Assembly (NCBI RefSeq): GCF_040183065.1
Contig: NW_027185566.1
Coordinates: 744,001-808,000, forward strand
DNA from: Periplaneta americana
Lineage: Eukaryota; Arthropoda; Insecta; Blattodea; Blattidae
Reading direction: 5' to 3'
DNA: 64,000 nt
Made by a program: the position numbers and the translations under genes. The notes beneath the pieces are model-generated. The model was not told the origin of the DNA and did not search any database. It was given only the letters and a program-made list of their open reading frames with translations. Every line of letters begins with the position of its first letter. Within the stretch, counting starts at the first letter, position 1. Shown here piece by piece: positions 13,463 to 51,090 of this stretch.

Positions 13463-14113
13463 ATGCATAAAGAACATCACGAATGTTGTGGTAGTACTGG
13501 TGAACAGTGCCAAAATGAAAAAGAACATACCTTTTTTGTAGAATTTGGAGATAAAACTCCTAACTTTACTATTAAATCTTATGATCCAACTACCAAAAAT
13601 ATTGGAGATTATACTTACCAAACAGGAAAATGGACTGTTTTTTACTTCTACCCTGCCGATTTTACCTTTGTTTGTCCAACGGAGTTAGGGGATTTAGAGA
13701 AAGCTCATCAACACTTAAAAAAAACTGGAGTAAATTTATTTGCTATCTCTACAGACTCTGCATTTTCACATTCCGTGTGGCATAAAACAGAAGGACTTCT
13801 TTCTACAGTATCTTTTCCTTTTTTGGCAGATACCACCAAAGAAGTTACTGAGATGTTTAACCTACTCAATCACAAAACTGGCTTTGCTCGTCGTGCCACT
13901 GTAATTTTAAATCCTGCTGGGGAACTTTCTGTATTAGAAATAGTACCTGACAATTTAGGACGTTCTACCGATGAACTCATCAGAAAAATGGATGCACTCC
14001 TATTTACCGAGAAAAATGGTGGCGTTTGCCCTGTGAACTGGAAAGCTGGAGATCCTTCTTTAGATCCTGCAAAATTGGTTATAGGTGATGTTTCTCATTC
14101 TATAAACAAATAA
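13463..14113 (+). CDS. AhpC-type 2-Cys peroxiredoxin
   Basis: The 216-residue product is a thiol peroxidase of the AhpC/TSA family that reduces H2O2 and organic peroxides. The peroxidatic cysteine is Cys71 in DFTFVCPTEL and the resolving cysteine is in GGVCPVNWKAGD near the C-terminus. The arginine in FARRATVILNP is also conserved. The first 22 residues form an unusual His/Cys-rich leader (MHKEHHECCGSTGEQCQ) that could bind metal. ATG 13463 is fixed by GGAGG. It is the Cys-containing paralogue of the gene that follows; no ahpF is adjacent. Confidence 0.93.
   Translation: MHKEHHECCGSTGEQCQNEKEHTFFVEFGDKTPNFTIKSYDPTTKNIGDYTYQTGKWTVFYFYPADFTFVCPTELGDLEKAHQHLKKTGVNLFAISTDSAFSHSVWHKTEGLLSTVSFPFLADTTKEVTEMFNLLNHKTGFARRATVILNPAGELSVLEIVPDNLGRSTDELIRKMDALLFTEKNGGVCPVNWKAGDPSLDPAKLVIGDVSHSINK
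13534..13674 (+). repeat. Near-identical block shared with the second peroxiredoxin gene (copy 1)
   Basis: The 139 bases before the Cys codon's last positions match 14259-14399 at an offset of 725 with only two differences that I can find. The match falls off sharply from the Cys/TGA codon onward (15 differences in the next 39 bases). Recent gene conversion or selection on the downstream element would explain this. Confidence 0.8.
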
Positions 14114-14156
14114 TTTTTCTCTCCCCTCAGAAGGGGGGGGATTGCAAAACTTTCTC

Positions 14157-14186
14157 TCGACAAATTTTTATCGTTATATTTATAGT
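14157..14186 (+). promoter_or_regulatory. Possible promoter for the second peroxiredoxin gene
   Basis: TCGACA at 14157-14162 and TATAGT at 14181-14186 are 18 bases apart, 22 bases before the ATG. This suggests the gene can be expressed separately from its neighbour. The -35 match is moderate. Confidence 0.4.
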
Positions 14187-14208
14187 CATACTATTATGGA
14201 GGTGCGTT

Positions 14209-14838
14209 ATGCATAAAAATGCAATCGAAACTTGTGGCTGTGGTCAAGAAGAAAGCTATTTTGTAGAATTTGGAGATAAAACTCCTAGCTTTACTATTAA
14301 ATCTTATGATCCAACTACCAAAAATATTGGAGATTATACTTACCAAACAGGGAAATGGACTGTTTTTTACTTCTACCCTGCCGATTTTACCTTTGTTTGA
14401 CCTACCGAACTTGGAGACCTGGAAGGTGCTCACCAACATTTAAAAAAAGCGGGAGTAGATTTATTTGCTATTTCCACAGACTCTGCCTTTTCACATTCCG
14501 TGTGGCATAAAACAGAGGGATTGATCTCTCAAATCACTTACCCATTACTCGCAGATACCACTAAAGAAGTTACCGAGATGTTCAACTTGGTGGATTATAA
14601 TACAGGGTTTGCTCGTCGTGCTACTGTAATTTTAAATCCTGCTGGGGAGCTTTCTGTATTAGAGATAGTGCCAAACAATATGGGGCGTTCTACAGATGAG
14701 CTCATCAGAAAAATAGATGCACTCCTATTTACTGAGAAAAATGGTGGCGTTTGCCCTGTGAACTGGAAAGCTGGAGAAAGTTCTCTAGATCCTGCCAGTT
14801 TAGTACTCGGTGATGTTTTCAATTCTATGAAAAAATAA
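14209..14838 (+). CDS. Selenocysteine-containing peroxiredoxin (PrxU-type), in-frame TGA = Sec64
   Basis: The frame runs from ATG 14209 (GGAGG upstream) to TAA 14838, 209 residues, interrupted only by TGA at 14398-14400. That codon stands exactly where the paralogue has the peroxidatic cysteine: DFTFV-TGA-PTELGDLEG. All other features are intact, including the resolving GGVCPVNWKAGE and FARRATVILNP. PrxU selenoproteins with Sec at this position are known in other bacteria, where Sec gives a more reactive peroxidase. The bases after TGA fold into a hairpin fitting a bacterial SECIS element (separate entry). A decayed copy with one nonsense mutation is the alternative. It is less likely because no other lesion is seen and the replaced residue is the one that Sec replaces in the family. 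Ending at TGA, the product would be 63 residues. Confidence 0.85.
14411..14436 (+). promoter_or_regulatory. Putative bacterial SECIS element of the peroxiredoxin gene
   Basis: Bases 14414-14420 (GAGACCT) pair with 14424-14431 (AGGTGCTC, one bulged G), leaving the apical loop GGA at 14421-14423. TTG at 14411-14413 can pair with CAA at 14434-14436. The loop begins 20 bases after the TGA, within the 16-37 base range described for bacterial SECIS elements, and has the required G in its first two positions. The Cys paralogue has AAA where this gene has GGT (14425-14427), which destroys the upper stem. Confidence 0.75.
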
Positions 14839-30973: not shown

Positions 30974-31378
30974 TTACTCGTCTGTTTTATCTTGTGCCAA
31001 CATTTGTCTGATAGCATCGGCGGCTTTTCTGGGCTCTATATTCATATCCGTTACAGATGTTGTTGGTGGACGCACTGCAATGTTATCATCCATATCTTTC
31101 ATATCCAAAGACTGACCCAAGTTACTTGCTTGATTATTCTGTTCTTTTTTATGTTGGGCTTTAGGTAAAAATTCATCTACTGGGACATGATCTACCCAAG
31201 TATTTAATAAAAAAACAAGAAGGAAAACCATAATACTGAAAATAGGTACATAAATAACAACCCTTATCAGAATAGTCCAAAATCCAACATGTCCAACAAG
31301 ACCTAAAATAATAATCATTAACAAAAAAACAACAATAACAACTGCTGCAATTTTGTTCCTTCTACGAAGATTTTGCAT
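30974..31378 (-). CDS. Small membrane protein upstream of fliA
   Basis: The 134-residue product has two hydrophobic helices (KIAAVVIVVFLLMIIILGLV and ILIRVVIYVPIFSIMVFLLV) and a soluble C-terminal tail ending RKAADAIRQMLAQDKTDE. A short protein with this shape often precedes fliA in spirochaete flagellar clusters, but I cannot name the family with certainty. ATG 31378 is preferred to the longer frame. It probably starts the fliA-fapA transcript. Confidence 0.65.
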   Translation of the reverse strand: MQNLRRRNKIAAVVIVVFLLMIIILGLVGHVGFWTILIRVVIYVPIFSIMVFLLVFLLNTWVDHVPVDEFLPKAQHKKEQNNQASNLGQSLDMKDMDDNIAVRPPTTSVTDMNIEPRKAADAIRQMLAQDKTDE

Positions 31379-31459
31379 GTTTAACACCAAAAAACTTATC
31401 CTTATAGGTAAAAAATAGTATATTTTATGTGTGTAACAAAAAAAATCTAGGAAATTTTT

Positions 31460-32341: not shown

Positions 32342-33589
32342 ATGAATCTATACTCAAACTTATCAAAACAAGACCCAGAGCTTTTTGGGTTTGTTCAACT
32401 GGAGCTGAAAAGACAAAGGGAAACATTGGAACTTATTGCTAGTGAAAACATTGTTTCGCTCCCTGTTTTAGAAGCAGCATCTACTATTTTAACCAACAAA
32501 TATGCGGAGGGCTATCCCAATGCTCGATATTACGGAGGATGTGAAGAAGTAGATAAAGTAGAAAATTTGGCTATTGAAAGACTAAAAAAACTTTTTGGGG
32601 CAGAACATGCCAATGTACAACCCCATTCTGGTAGCCAAGCCAACCAGGCTGTCTATCTCGCTCTTCTGAATCCAGGAGATAAAGTACTCGCACTGAGTTT
32701 AACTGATGGAGGACACTTAACTCACGGAAGTCCTGTTAATGCTAGTGGAAAAACTTATCAGTTTTCTTACTATAACTTAAACAAAAACTCTGAAATTGAC
32801 TACAACAACGCACGAGAGGTTGCCCTAAAGGAAAAACCGAAACTCATCATTACTGGTGGGAGTGCTTATTCTCGTACTATTGACTTTAAAAAATTTCGTG
32901 ATATTGCCGACGAAGTTGGGGCTTTTTTTATGGTAGACATGGCTCATTACGCTGGATTAATAGCTTGTGGAATCTACCCATCTCCTATCCCCTATGCTGA
33001 TGTGTGTACATCTACCACTCATAAAACCTTACGAGGTCCTAGAGGAGGAGTCATTCTTTGCAAAAAAGAACTGGCAACTAAAATAGACAAAGCCGTTTTT
33101 CCTGGAATGCAGGGTGGACCTTTAATGCACATTATTGCTGCCAAAGCCACCGCTTTTTATGAAGCGTTACAACCAGAGTTCAAAACTTATTCACAACAAG
33201 TGGTAAAAAATGCCCAAACTCTTTCTGAAAATCTCATAAAACAGGGTTTAAAAGTAGTTTCTGGCGGAACTGACTGTCATCTTCTATTAATTGACCTAAC
33301 GGATCAAAAAATTACAGGAAAAGAAGCACAAGCATTATTAGACTCTGTGAATATTACCACCAACAAAAATACTGTCCCAAACGATACAAAAAGTCCGTTA
33401 ATCACCAGCGGCATTAGAATTGGAACCCCTGCTATTACATCTAGAGGAATGAAAGAAGCCGAAATGGCACTCATCGCTCAACTCTTAGTAGATGCCATAA
33501 AAAATAAGGATAACTTGGAAGAAATTTCTAAAATTAGACAAAAAACTATTGCCTTATGCAATCAGTTTCCTATTTATCAAGGACTCTAA
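32342..33589 (+). CDS. glyA: Serine hydroxymethyltransferase
   Basis: The PLP enzyme interconverts serine and glycine with tetrahydrofolate, the main source of one-carbon units. The 415-residue protein has [20 protein letters not shown], the PLP lysine in [13 protein letters not shown], and [20 protein letters not shown] lies just before the ATG. A strong hairpin terminator follows at 33605-33630. Confidence 0.97.
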
Positions 33590-33604
33590 GAAATAAACTC
33601 AAAA

Positions 33605-33630
33605 GGGAGGATAAATATCCTCCCTTTTTT
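33605..33630. terminator. Bidirectional intrinsic terminator
   Basis: GGGAGGAT at 33605-33612 pairs with ATCCTCCC at 33617-33624 and is flanked by AAAA before and TTTTTT after. It can end glyA on the plus strand and the small minus-strand gene at 33681-33773. Confidence 0.9.
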
Positions 33631-33658
33631 GAAATAGGCTCATCAGAGAGCATCTCAT

Positions 33659-33677
33659 AATTGACAACCTGCCAATT
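33659..33677 (-). promoter_or_regulatory. Putative bacterial SECIS hairpin of the mini-gene
   Basis: Read on the minus strand the 19 bases AATTGGCAGGTTGTCAATT form an uninterrupted 8-bp stem (one G-U pair) closed by the loop GGT. The loop starts 20 bases after the in-frame TGA of the small gene, the same distance as in the peroxiredoxin gene, and has G in both of its first two positions. The hairpin lies just downstream of the gene's TAA, so it is not constrained by coding. Confidence 0.65.
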
Positions 33678-33680
33678 TTC

Positions 33681-33773
33681 TTAAAAATCTCAGCCTCCAC
33701 CCATATCATCATCATCGTCCTCAGGACCAAATCCTAAGATAAGGGTATTTCTCAAAGCCATTTTGGATTTCAT
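33681..33773 (-). CDS. Candidate mini-selenoprotein, 30 residues with Sec28 (TGA at 33690-33692)
   Basis: ATG 33773 lies six bases after GAGGTGG (minus strand, 33780-33786), a good ribosome site. The frame encodes MKSKMALRNTLILGFG, then Pro-Glu, a run of five Asp, MGGG, a TGA, then Asp-Phe and TAA. If TGA is selenocysteine the product ends MGGG-Sec-Asp-Phe. If TGA stops, a 27-residue peptide ending in GGG results. A hairpin fitting a bacterial SECIS follows (33659-33677). The gene has its own upstream A/T-rich region and shares the terminator with glyA, so it appears to be a single-gene unit. I recognise no family. A short Gly-rich arm carrying Sec near the C-terminus recalls redox or metal-binding selenoproteins, but that is only an analogy. 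It is not a fragment of a neighbour. Confidence 0.6.
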
Positions 33774-33860
33774 AAAGAACCACCTCGTCGTTCGCTAGAT
33801 ATAAATAAATATAAAAAGAGAAAAAAGACAAATTCTTTATGCTTTCTTTTTATAACCAAC

Positions 33861-34805
33861 CTAACGGGTAAAAACCAAAATATCCACCTTTTGAGCTTGA
33901 GATCTCACGGTTGTGGGTTGTACAATCAGTTGGAAAAATCCCTCATCAATCTTTTCTTTCCAAGCTGCATATTGAATGAGCTGTGTAGCCCGCTCTACAG
34001 CAATCCGTTTCCCTTCAGCACCCCTACCAGAAGGAAAATAGGCAGTAAACTTGTAATGGAATTTTTGCCCTTTTTTATATTTTGCTTTCACTTTGCGGAT
34101 ATGCTTCTCAAAATCCACTTTGACACGATAAGGAACATAAGTTTTACCCGCATAAAATGGTCCCAAAGACATCTTATAGACCAACTGACCACGACGAGAA
34201 GCGGTTTTCTTTTGAACAGTCTTTTGTGCTTTTTTAACCCTCTTTGGAGACTTTTTAACCACATTTTGAGATGTTTTTTTATGAGTCGATTTTTTTGAAG
34301 TTTTTTTTGTATTTTTTGCATGTATTGATTTTGTCGTCTTTGATTTTTGCTCTTGAGATATTTTATCTTCCACAACGGGAGTATTTGCAACAATTTCCTC
34401 TGCTTCGGTGAGAGTTTTTTTTGCATTTAAATCTTTCACAGCACTTGCATCTTCATTCTCTAAAGATTCTGAAATATCTATTTCTCCAGAATTATCCTCA
34501 GTATAATCGGAAGGTAAAATAGGACTCTCTTGAACTTCAGGACAAACAATCATAGAATTTTTTGTGTCATCCGTAACTTCGCCCATCCACTGTCTATTTT
34601 TCAGTTGAGGTCCACAAGGATCCAAAGGAATTTCTTGACAATCGTCATTATTGTCAGATTTTTTGATTACCGTCCCAAACGCATCCGTAACATCTTCTGA
34701 TTGTAATGAACATCTTCGAGAATCATCAAACAAATCGTCTTTGTTGGAACAAGCAACAAACATAGCCGTTACAATAAGTAAAGGGAGCAGTAGTCTCAGT
34801 TTCAT
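33861..34805 (-). CDS. Lipoprotein with Lys-rich linker, unknown function
   Basis: The 314-residue product has a lipoprotein signal (LLLPLLIVTAMFVAC, lipidation at Cys19), an acidic region with several cysteines (to about residue 140), and a Lys/Thr/Ser-rich linker of about 60 residues. A C-terminal domain of about 110 residues (RGQLVYKMSLGPFYAGKTYV, ERATQLIQYAAW) follows. The layout suggests an anchored protein whose basic linker spans peptidoglycan. The C-terminal domain is not one I can name. ATG 34805 is set by GAGGA seven bases upstream. It is downstream of ruvX and thiL. Confidence 0.7.
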   Translation of the reverse strand: MKLRLLLPLLIVTAMFVACSNKDDLFDDSRRCSLQSEDVTDAFGTVIKKSDNNDDCQEIPLDPCGPQLKNRQWMGEVTDDTKNSMIVCPEVQESPILPSDYTEDNSGEIDISESLENEDASAVKDLNAKKTLTEAEEIVANTPVVEDKISQEQKSKTTKSIHAKNTKKTSKKSTHKKTSQNVVKKSPKRVKKAQKTVQKKTASRRGQLVYKMSLGPFYAGKTYVPYRVKVDFEKHIRKVKAKYKKGQKFHYKFTAYFPSGRGAEGKRIAVERATQLIQYAAWKEKIDEGFFQLIVQPTTVRSQAQKVDILVFTR

Positions 34806-34855
34806 ATACAATTCCTCGTGTTAGTAAATTTACTAAACAAAAATATTAAAGTGAA

Positions 34856-48474: not shown

Positions 48475-51090
48475 GTGTCGGAAAATAAAAAAAAGATCCC
48501 TATAAAAATTAAACTCAAATCTACTTCTGGAGATTCGAGTGCTTTATCTTCTGGTTCTGAACAATCCAAAGGGGAAACGGAAAAACCGAAGTATAAAGTT
48601 GATGTAAAATCTCCACATGCGGAACATGTAGGTCATGAACACGGGAATCGTAGTAGTAGCTTGGGACAAAATACTGGCGGAAACCGTAACTATCAAGGAA
48701 ACAGACCTTATCAGGGGAATAACTCAGGACAAAATACTGGTGGAAATCGTAATTATCAAGGAAATAGACCTTATCAGGGAAATAACTCAGGACAAAATAC
48801 CGGTGGAAATCGTAATTATCAAGGGAACAGACCTTATCAGGGGAATAATTCAGATCAAAACACCGGCGGAAACCGTAATTATCAAGGAAACAGACCTTAT
48901 CAGGGGAATAACTCAGGACAAAATACCGGTGGAAATCGTAATTATCAAGGAAGCAGACCTTATCAGGGCAATAACTCAGGACAAATCGGCGGAAACCGTA
49001 ATTATCAAGGAAACAGACCTTATCAGGGAAATAACTCAGGACAAAATACCGGCGGAAACCGTAATTATCAAGGAAATAACCCCACACAAAGACCTACCAG
49101 TGGTTTTCAAAGAACTCCACAAAAAGATTCTCCCGTACCAGAAAATACAAAAAAAGATTTTCTTTCCGTAAGTAACAAACAGAGAACTGTCAAGTCTGAT
49201 TTTAAAAAGAAAAAAGATTTTGCTTCCTCTTATGTGGATAAAGAAGTCAATTTTGAACTTCACCATCGTAAAAAGAAATCGTCTGCTGCAGCTATTCCCT
49301 CTGAAATTGATATTTATGATACCATTTTAGTGAGTGAATTAGCCGCAAAAATGAATCTGAAAGCCAGTGATTTAATTGCTAAGCTCTTAGGATTAGGTTA
49401 TATTGCCACTATTAATGATGCCCTAGATGCAGAGACTGCCGAAATCATTGCATCAGAATATGGCTGTAAAGTAAATATTAAATCTTATCAGGAAGAGTTG
49501 AACGAAATTATAGAAACCCTCTCTTCTTCACAACAACAAAGTACCTCGCGTCCTCCTGTAGTAACTATTATGGGACATGTGGATCATGGAAAAACAACCT
49601 TACTTGACTATATTAGAAAAGCCCATGTCGCTTCCAGTGAAGCTGGTGGAATTACTCAACATATTGGGGCTTACCAAATTGAACATAATGGACAGATGAT
49701 CACATTTATTGATACCCCAGGTCACGAAGCTTTTACAGCCATGCGATCTCGTGGAGCCTCCATTACTGATATTGTCATATTAGTAGTAGCAGCGGATGAT
49801 GGAATTATGCCTCAGACAATAGAAGCACTAAATCATGCCAAGGCAGCAAAAGTGCCTACTATTGTTGCAATCAACAAAATTGACAAAGAAGAAAAAAATA
49901 TAGAAGCTATAAAAAGCCAGTTGAGTGAACATGGCTTACTCCCCGAGGATTGGGGGGGAGATACCATGTTTATTGGGGTTTCCGCCTTAAAAGGAACAGG
50001 AGTTCCAGAATTGTTAGATGCAGTACTACTTAATGCAGAACTCAAAGAGTATCAAGCCAATCCAGAAACTCTTGCTAAAGGTGTCATTTTAGAATCCAAA
50101 ATGGATAAAAGCAGAGGGTCTATAGCTACGGTGATTGTTCAAGATGGAACTTTAAAAAAAGGGGATATTTTTGTCACAGGTACGGCTATTAGTAGAGTAA
50201 GAGCTATGTTTGATCATACGGGTCAAGAAGTCGCCCAAGCTCTTCCCAGCACTCCTATAGAAGTATTAGGGTTTGAAGATGTACCAGAAGCAGGGGATAT
50301 GCTTTATGTAACCCCCTCTGAAAAAGTTGCAAAATCTATTGTGGATAAAAAGAAAGCCATTTGGATTGCAGAACATGCCAAAAAAATCACAAAAACCGAT
50401 AATACTCTAGACGACCTGTTCTTAAAAATTCAAGAACAGGGTAAGGTAGACTTCAATGTAATTGTCAAAGCTGATGTACAAGGAACCGTGGAAGCGATCA
50501 AAGGGATGTTAGAAAAACTAGCTTCTCAAATTCAAGAAGTTAATTTGAAAGTTATTCACGCCGCTGTTGGAGCCATTACCGAAAATGATATTCTACTCGC
50601 TTCTACATCGGGTGCCTTGGTAGTTGGTTTTAACGTACGAGTCAACAATGATAAGACCAATCGTTTAGCCAAAGAAAAAGGGATAGAAATCAGACGATAT
50701 AGTATTATCTACGAAATTAGTAACGATATTAAAGATGCTATTGAAGGGATACTACAACCAGAACAGAATGAAAAAATTATTGGCGAAGCGGTAGTACGGC
50801 AAGTTTTTAAAATTCCTAAAGTTGGTTTAATCGCTGGATCTTATGTTACTGAAGGTACGATTAAAATAAACTCACAAGTTCGTGTTATCAGAGATGGGGT
50901 AGTAGAATTTACCGGTAAAATTATCACCCTGAAAAGATTTAAAGAAGATATTAAAGAAGCTACAAAGGGCTTTGAATGTGGTATAGAAATAGCTAACTTT
51001 AAATCCATAAAAGAAGGAGATATTCTTGAATGTTTTGAGATAGAACAAGTCTCCAAAAAATTAGAACTGATAGATTTACCCAAGGAATAA
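48475..51090 (+). CDS. infB: Translation initiation factor IF-2 with repeat-rich N-terminus
   Basis: IF-2 is the GTPase that brings initiator tRNA to the ribosome. The 871-residue protein starts at GTG and has a Gly/Asn/Gln-rich N-terminal region. This contains about six 21-residue repeats (GQNTGGNRNYQGNRPYQGNN units) at residues about 64-200. The conserved G domain follows (GHVDHGKTTLLDYI, IDTPGHEAFTAMRSRGA, AINKID), then domains II, III and IV. The repeat linker replaces the Ala/Glu-rich one of most IF-2 proteins. Confidence 0.96.
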   Translation: MSENKKKIPIKIKLKSTSGDSSALSSGSEQSKGETEKPKYKVDVKSPHAEHVGHEHGNRSSSLGQNTGGNRNYQGNRPYQGNNSGQNTGGNRNYQGNRPYQGNNSGQNTGGNRNYQGNRPYQGNNSDQNTGGNRNYQGNRPYQGNNSGQNTGGNRNYQGSRPYQGNNSGQIGGNRNYQGNRPYQGNNSGQNTGGNRNYQGNNPTQRPTSGFQRTPQKDSPVPENTKKDFLSVSNKQRTVKSDFKKKKDFASSYVDKEVNFELHHRKKKSSAAAIPSEIDIYDTILVSELAAKMNLKASDLIAKLLGLGYIATINDALDAETAEIIASEYGCKVNIKSYQEELNEIIETLSSSQQQSTSRPPVVTIMGHVDHGKTTLLDYIRKAHVASSEAGGITQHIGAYQIEHNGQMITFIDTPGHEAFTAMRSRGASITDIVILVVAADDGIMPQTIEALNHAKAAKVPTIVAINKIDKEEKNIEAIKSQLSEHGLLPEDWGGDTMFIGVSALKGTGVPELLDAVLLNAELKEYQANPETLAKGVILESKMDKSRGSIATVIVQDGTLKKGDIFVTGTAISRVRAMFDHTGQEVAQALPSTPIEVLGFEDVPEAGDMLYVTPSEKVAKSIVDKKKAIWIAEHAKKITKTDNTLDDLFLKIQEQGKVDFNVIVKADVQGTVEAIKGMLEKLASQIQEVNLKVIHAAVGAITENDILLASTSGALVVGFNVRVNNDKTNRLAKEKGIEIRRYSIIYEISNDIKDAIEGILQPEQNEKIIGEAVVRQVFKIPKVGLIAGSYVTEGTIKINSQVRVIRDGVVEFTGKIITLKRFKEDIKEATKGFECGIEIANFKSIKEGDILECFEIEQVSKKLELIDLPKE
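48664..49080 (+). repeat. Tandem 63-base repeat inside infB
   Basis: Six units, five of 63 bases and one shortened by one codon (missing Asn/Thr), plus a partial seventh unit, encode the GQNTGGNRNYQGNRPYQGNN motif. Units vary slightly (for example Asp for Gly and Ser for Asn), mostly at synonymous positions. The array is in frame, so unit loss or gain keeps IF-2 readable. Confidence 0.9.

Follow-up and report, generated by a model that had tools for sequence, protein, structure and literature searches.

I found that a very short reading frame on the minus strand of the window (the whole stretch of 64,000 nucleotides analysed here) is probably a real micro-gene, in which UGA is decoded as selenocysteine (Sec) to give a 30-residue peptide ending in GGG-Sec-Asp-Phe. 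The frame, hereafter the mini-frame, and its surroundings consist of the following features.

33861-34811, minus strand: lipoprotein-like gene (named by eye), upstream of the mini-frame on the same strand
33780-33786, minus strand: ribosome-binding site GAGGTGG, 6 nt (33779-33774) upstream of the ATG (direct reading)
33693-33773, minus strand: mini-frame of 27 sense codons, MKSKMALRNTLILGFGPEDDDDDMGGG, with the ATG at 33773-33771 (direct reading)
33690-33692, minus strand: in-frame TGA, the candidate Sec codon 28 (direct reading and the strict SECIS rule given below)
33681-33689, minus strand: GAT TTT TAA, that is, Asp and Phe (33689-33684) and the stop codon (33683-33681)
33659-33677, minus strand: SECIS-like hairpin of 8 bp, with arms AATTGGCA (33677-33670) and TGTCAATT (33666-33659) and the loop GGT (33669-33667)
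33601-33628, minus strand: terminator-like hairpin and then a T run, 3′ of the mini-frame hairpin

The sequence-only reading had described the GAGGTGG six bases before the ATG at 33773 and the 30-codon frame in which TGA is followed by GAT TTT TAA, and both were confirmed by direct reading. The GAGGTG within the ribosome site is a 6-nt match to the anti-SD complement in a scan of the window. The entire frame, including the TGA, is MKSKMALRNTLILGFGPEDDDDDMGGG-UGA-DF-stop. If the UGA is Sec, the predicted mini-peptide has a basic-hydrophobic start, five Asp residues, MGGG, Sec, Asp, and Phe.

The hairpin has eight uninterrupted base pairs, one of which is G-U. Counted from the TGA, its stem starts after 12 nt, which is 3 nt beyond the TAA, and its loop after 20 nt. 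The 8-bp hairpin with a GGT loop had been reported before and is indeed present, while the reported start at 20 bases after the TGA applies to the loop and not to the stem. It had also been said to share its distance and loop type with the signal of a peroxiredoxin gene in the window; the loop-start distance of 20 nt is the same, but the loop of the peroxiredoxin hairpin is GGA. The peroxiredoxin locus is as follows.

13463-14113, plus strand: Cys twin of the Sec-peroxiredoxin (VCPTE), 81% identical and directly upstream of it
14209-14838, plus strand: peroxiredoxin (PF00578) with an in-frame TGA at 14398-14400, read as DFTFV-U-PTELG
14414-14431, plus strand: peroxiredoxin hairpin, with the loop GGA at 14421-14423 starting 20 nt after the TGA

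The TGA of the peroxiredoxin gene occupies the position of the Cys codon in the VCPTE of the twin. The tandem Cys and Sec peroxiredoxins (13463-14838) represent a duplication, and the Cys copy could cover a loss of the Sec system. An apical loop that starts with GG exactly 20 nt after the UGA is common to the peroxiredoxin, the mini-frame, and the SelD of the same bacterium (n = 3). Of these, the peroxiredoxin and SelD are near-certain selenoproteins. The loops are GGA, GGCU, and GGT, and the hairpin energies are -6.2, -7.6, and -5.7, for the peroxiredoxin, SelD, and the mini-frame, respectively. The limits for bacterial SECIS elements given in a figure legend of PMC13188914 are a loop of 3-9 nt, a stem of 4-16 bp, a G in loop positions 1-2, and a distance of 16-37 nt from the UGA. 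The mini-frame hairpin (loop 3, stem 8, GG, 20 nt) lies inside all the limits of that legend, and the earlier claim of a bacterial SECIS geometry holds to this extent.

Folding energies are less distinctive. Alone, the mini-frame hairpin has -5.7, and folding of 44 nt gives -6.5; neither value reaches a published limit of -7.5 kcal/mol. Folding of 50 nt gives -10.2, while the peroxiredoxin signal has -6.2 on both 44 and 50 nt. The whole 61-nt region of the mini-frame has no extra stability compared with its shuffles (z +0.36), and the whole region of the peroxiredoxin likewise does not exceed its shuffles (z +0.07).

Does this bacterium use selenocysteine? It almost certainly does. The selD gene, a tRNA-Sec gene (TCA), selA, and selB lie in a row in locus L129 (C44:100000-109999) of a plasmid-like contig, C44, of 156,031 bases, and this selD has its own in-frame TGA (SGG-U-AAK). 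Beside these sel genes, C44 encodes a ParA-type ATPase (PF13614), a Rep3 initiator and, next to the ATPase, a protein of no known family. The tetranucleotide composition of C44 matches that of the window with r 0.946, compared with 0.940-0.976 for pieces of the window and a piece of C85, the contig of the window, and with 0.606 for genome G024, 0.730 for genome G011, and 0.180-0.724 for six unrelated loci. The codon usage correlates with that of the window with r 0.978 for the sel genes of C44 and r 0.964 for the genes of its rep/par region. Among the SelB-model matches listed, C44 has SelB alone, while frames with the lengths of EF-Tu, EF-G, IF-2, LepA, and BipA are on C85; these GTPases were named by frame length, and IF-2 was read in the window. 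Because of the matching composition and the split of the translation GTPases, C44 and C85 very probably come from one cell, C44 being its plasmid. The absence of Sec machinery had been named beforehand as fatal to the Sec reading; tRNA-Sec, SelA, SelB, and SelD were found on C44, very probably in the same cell.

Several observations may be added on this system. A tRNA-Sec-like match on C85 itself was rejected, as it is a tRNA-Ser by ARAGORN, and an Rfam search of the window at gathering level gave three tRNAs and no other RNA family. The Sec machinery is apparently plasmid-borne, while the Sec genes of the window sit on the main contig. A selB gene is annotated on other public plasmids too, for example, on 21-kb plasmids of Terrisporobacter. 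The first named SelA matches are spirochaete proteins. An 80-residue protein encoded directly 5′ of selD (L129 4204-4446) has no Pfam or NCBIfam match.

C85 has 1,057,713 bases and is one of the 91 contigs of an assembly of 3.23 Gb. The window thus appears to be part of a bacterial contig inside an assembly as large as an animal or plant genome. The nearest ThiL sequences in 392 sampled genomes of the phylum (that of a record titled Spirochaetia) are those of G024 (43% identical) and G011 (41% identical), the two genomes that make up the class of G024 in the sample. A search of 5.8 billion proteins gave a top-scoring ThiL with 45% identity. ThiL as a single query gave no match in the contigs of the sampled genomes, while ThiL as an alignment query gave 573 loci, of which 80 were kept, with identities of 30-36%. 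From these sequence comparisons, the host-associated bacterium belongs to a spirochaete-like lineage without close relatives in the data searched. Elsewhere in the window, an outer-membrane-efflux-like gene (by eye; 1543-2900) is split into several frames by decay or sequencing error, and in the N-terminus of IF-2 (48475-49200) a unit of about 21 residues, with many Gly, Asn, Gln, Tyr, and Arg, is repeated in tandem (by eye).

How often does a TGA have such a signal by chance? Under loose, published-style SECIS limits, 179 of the 2,108 TGAs in the window pass, which makes these limits a weak test. A strict rule was considered which requires a loop of 3-6 nt starting exactly 20 nt from the TGA with the bases GG, at least 4 contiguous pairs, and a hairpin energy of -5.7 or lower. 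The peroxiredoxin and SelD supplied its spacing and GG, the mini-frame hairpin itself supplied the energy limit, and the rule was framed only after all three hairpins had been seen. Just two of the 2,108 window TGAs on both strands satisfy it, namely those of the peroxiredoxin and the mini-frame, and in L129 the only one among 311 TGAs is the SelD codon. In the combined control DNA, the rate is 5/13,953 (L127, 1/675; L128, 0/668; L130, 0/304; 19 AT-rich loci, 4/12,306). The AT-rich loci were taken from the 80 ThiL loci, of which 61 were dropped for lying outside GC 0.28-0.42. Without the demand for four contiguous pairs, three more window TGAs (19024 and 35592 on the minus strand and 44011 on the plus strand) reach -5.7 with 20 nt and GG. 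Wider spacing with GG is found after 12/2,108 window TGAs for 18-22 nt and after 23/2,108 for 16-37 nt. A small-frame search of the window (15-80 codons, less than 20% overlap with larger frames, an SD match of at least 5) gave seven SD-led intergenic frames, two of which share a stop; the mini-frame is the only one with an ATG start and is one of the two ending in TGA. By chance, about 0.0007 strict matches would be expected on these two TGA-ending frames taken together. The Sec signal at the TGA of the mini-frame is well above chance.

TGA terminates 7 of the 57 larger frames of the window, which means that it is also an ordinary stop codon in this bacterium. These frames were picked by hand, leaving out evident shadow frames and adding one shorter frame; the 57 include two fragments of a broken gene, one of which is among the seven ending in TGA. 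It is conceivable, though unlikely, that the mini-frame encodes a real 27-residue peptide ending at the TGA, the hairpin being due to chance or having another role such as protection of the mRNA end. The strong ribosome site with its ATG, the use of TGA as a stop in larger frames, and the abundance of loose SECIS-like hairpins after TGAs all agree with such a peptide. Against it, the mini-frame has the exact 20-nt spacing, the GG loop, and the 8-bp stem as in the other UGA genes of the bacterium, and strict matches have the low rate stated above in control DNA. GG is found at the loop position after none of the seven TGAs that end larger frames.

On the other side of the mini-frame, glyA (plus strand; name by eye) faces the lipoprotein-like gene, and the palindrome at 33601-33628 could also serve as the terminator of glyA. 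No promoter-like site was seen on the strand of the mini-frame in 33500-34000. This agrees with a reading in which there is no protein at all, but only a chance frame 3′ of the lipoprotein-like gene or a small RNA that precedes the terminator, as do the lack of a homologue in the genomes, plasmids, and phages searched and the lack of a comparable frame after the lipoprotein-like gene of G024 (see below). The strong SD at the correct distance from the ATG, the ATG start that sets the mini-frame apart from the other six small frames, and the matching Sec signal at its TGA make this reading rather improbable. The succession of a UGA, a hairpin, and a terminator-like hairpin could also be viewed as a selenium-sensing leader, in which read-through or termination at the UGA alters the expression of the following gene. 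However, the downstream glyA and cheW-like genes are on the opposite strand and the next larger minus-strand frame is only at 30974-31390, and I consider such a leader very improbable.

Are there relatives of the mini-peptide? The search of its own genome recovered the mini-gene itself with E 4e-12, and thus the search is able to find such a gene. The only other match there (E 2.84) is on the 190-Mb contig C16, and no paralogue was found. In the phylum, tblastn gave matches with E<=10 in 15/392 genomes with a best E of 0.07, which is the chance level. Of the 17 matched loci, seven were inspected, and none is a small frame with the ending of the mini-peptide; a match with an internal TGA (L135) was rejected, as a different frame of this place looks by eye like a response-regulator gene. 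The ending pattern was found in 0/392 genomes in a search run without a positive control. The mini-peptide matched nothing in the plasmids and the phages, and no Cys version was found in the genomes searched.

The mini-gene is present in neither of the two closest sampled genomes, G024 and G011. The G024 homologue of the lipoprotein-like protein is 27% identical and its gene has a terminator-like repeat shortly 3′, and no frame like the mini-frame was seen 3′ of it. No SelB over the cut-off was found in either genome. Since a selenopeptide is not expected there, the absence of the mini-gene from these genomes is uninformative. The two SelB-model matches in G024 and G011 that rank next after those of EF-Tu length were rejected, being by eye a CysN/APS-kinase-type GTPase (L150) and an IF-2 (L151). 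The outcome for tRNA-Sec is less clear-cut, as its model gave one match just over the cut-off in G011 (47.4 versus 47; 73 nt) and one just below it (46.5; 89 nt). The same model gave matches in 14/14 control genomes, over the cut-off in five, and the G011 matches are likely to be ordinary tRNAs.

Since this bacterium very probably has the Sec machinery and the signal geometry is shared, Sec decoding is the best reading of the UGA, as the sequence-only reading had proposed; a convincing relative was not found in the genomes, plasmids, and phages searched. In engineered C-terminal Sec proteins of E. coli, the SECIS lies past the stop codon. Such a position should be allowed in the mini-gene because the distance from the UGA is presumably what matters. 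SelB-driven Sec insertion at a UGA with a SECIS hairpin is established, and recoding in E. coli is described as 30-40% efficient in PMC4513850. In the mini-gene, SelB carrying Sec-tRNA would bind the hairpin just beyond the TAA and deliver Sec at the UGA by a presumed read-through, and translation would stop two codons later. A flexible C-terminal tail of the Gly-rich acidic peptide may then expose the Sec residue for redox chemistry or metal binding. The best guess for its function is thus a free Sec tail, which may be a redox partner or a metal ligand. I tentatively suggest, with about as much doubt as confidence, that it is a free-standing 30-residue Sec tail lacking a carrier domain, with its gene on the chromosome and the Sec machinery on a plasmid next to the plasmid's replication genes, so that the peptide is made only in plasmid-keeping cells. 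If the Sec reading is true, selenoproteins include peptides far under the usual annotation limits and with a SECIS beyond the stop codon, and these would escape methods that depend on long frames or on homologues with Cys. The three cases so far suggest a lineage-specific spacing rule of exactly 20 nt with a GG loop. Such a rule would make micro-genes searchable per genome, given the clear selenoproteins of a bacterium.

VhuU and selenobacteriocin are short Sec-containing polypeptides, as the mini-peptide would be. They differ from it in their motifs: the UxxC motif in the archaeal MvhA/VhuA/VhuU row and SGUG with two Sec residues in selenobacteriocin, as given in PMC13188914, are absent from the mini-peptide. 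This 2026 review counts 119 selenoprotein families or subfamilies, and a row of its table gives the motif GxGU for UXX-star family 2. The mini-peptide had been said to belong to no described family; this stands for the whole peptide, which matches no Pfam or NCBIfam family (NCBIfam at E<=1 and E<=10), but not for its tail. If the UGA is Sec, GGG-U-D-F-stop has the GxGU-X-X-stop form of UXX-star family 2 (NF041211, gluta_UXX_star_2), where Sec and two residues precede the stop after GxG, the star in the name being read as a stop codon. In contrast, NF041211 spans 71 positions and is glutaredoxin-like, whereas the mini-peptide has 30 residues without such a domain. Sharing just the tail, the mini-peptide does not belong to UXX-star family 2. 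In the review, the Sec of the UXX-star family is said to possibly bind metal or unknown substrates. NF041211 itself gave no match over the cut-off in the 392 genomes and weaker matches in 223; several of these glutaredoxin-like matches have one TGA inside (G021, G159, G214, G118, G051, G187, and others) and may possibly be unannotated UXX-star-like selenoproteins of the phylum. With the peroxiredoxin and SelD of the same bacterium, the mini-gene shares the UGA, the 20-nt distance, the small apical loop starting with GG, and at least four contiguous pairs. Their hairpins lie within the coding region, while that of the mini-gene follows the stop codon.
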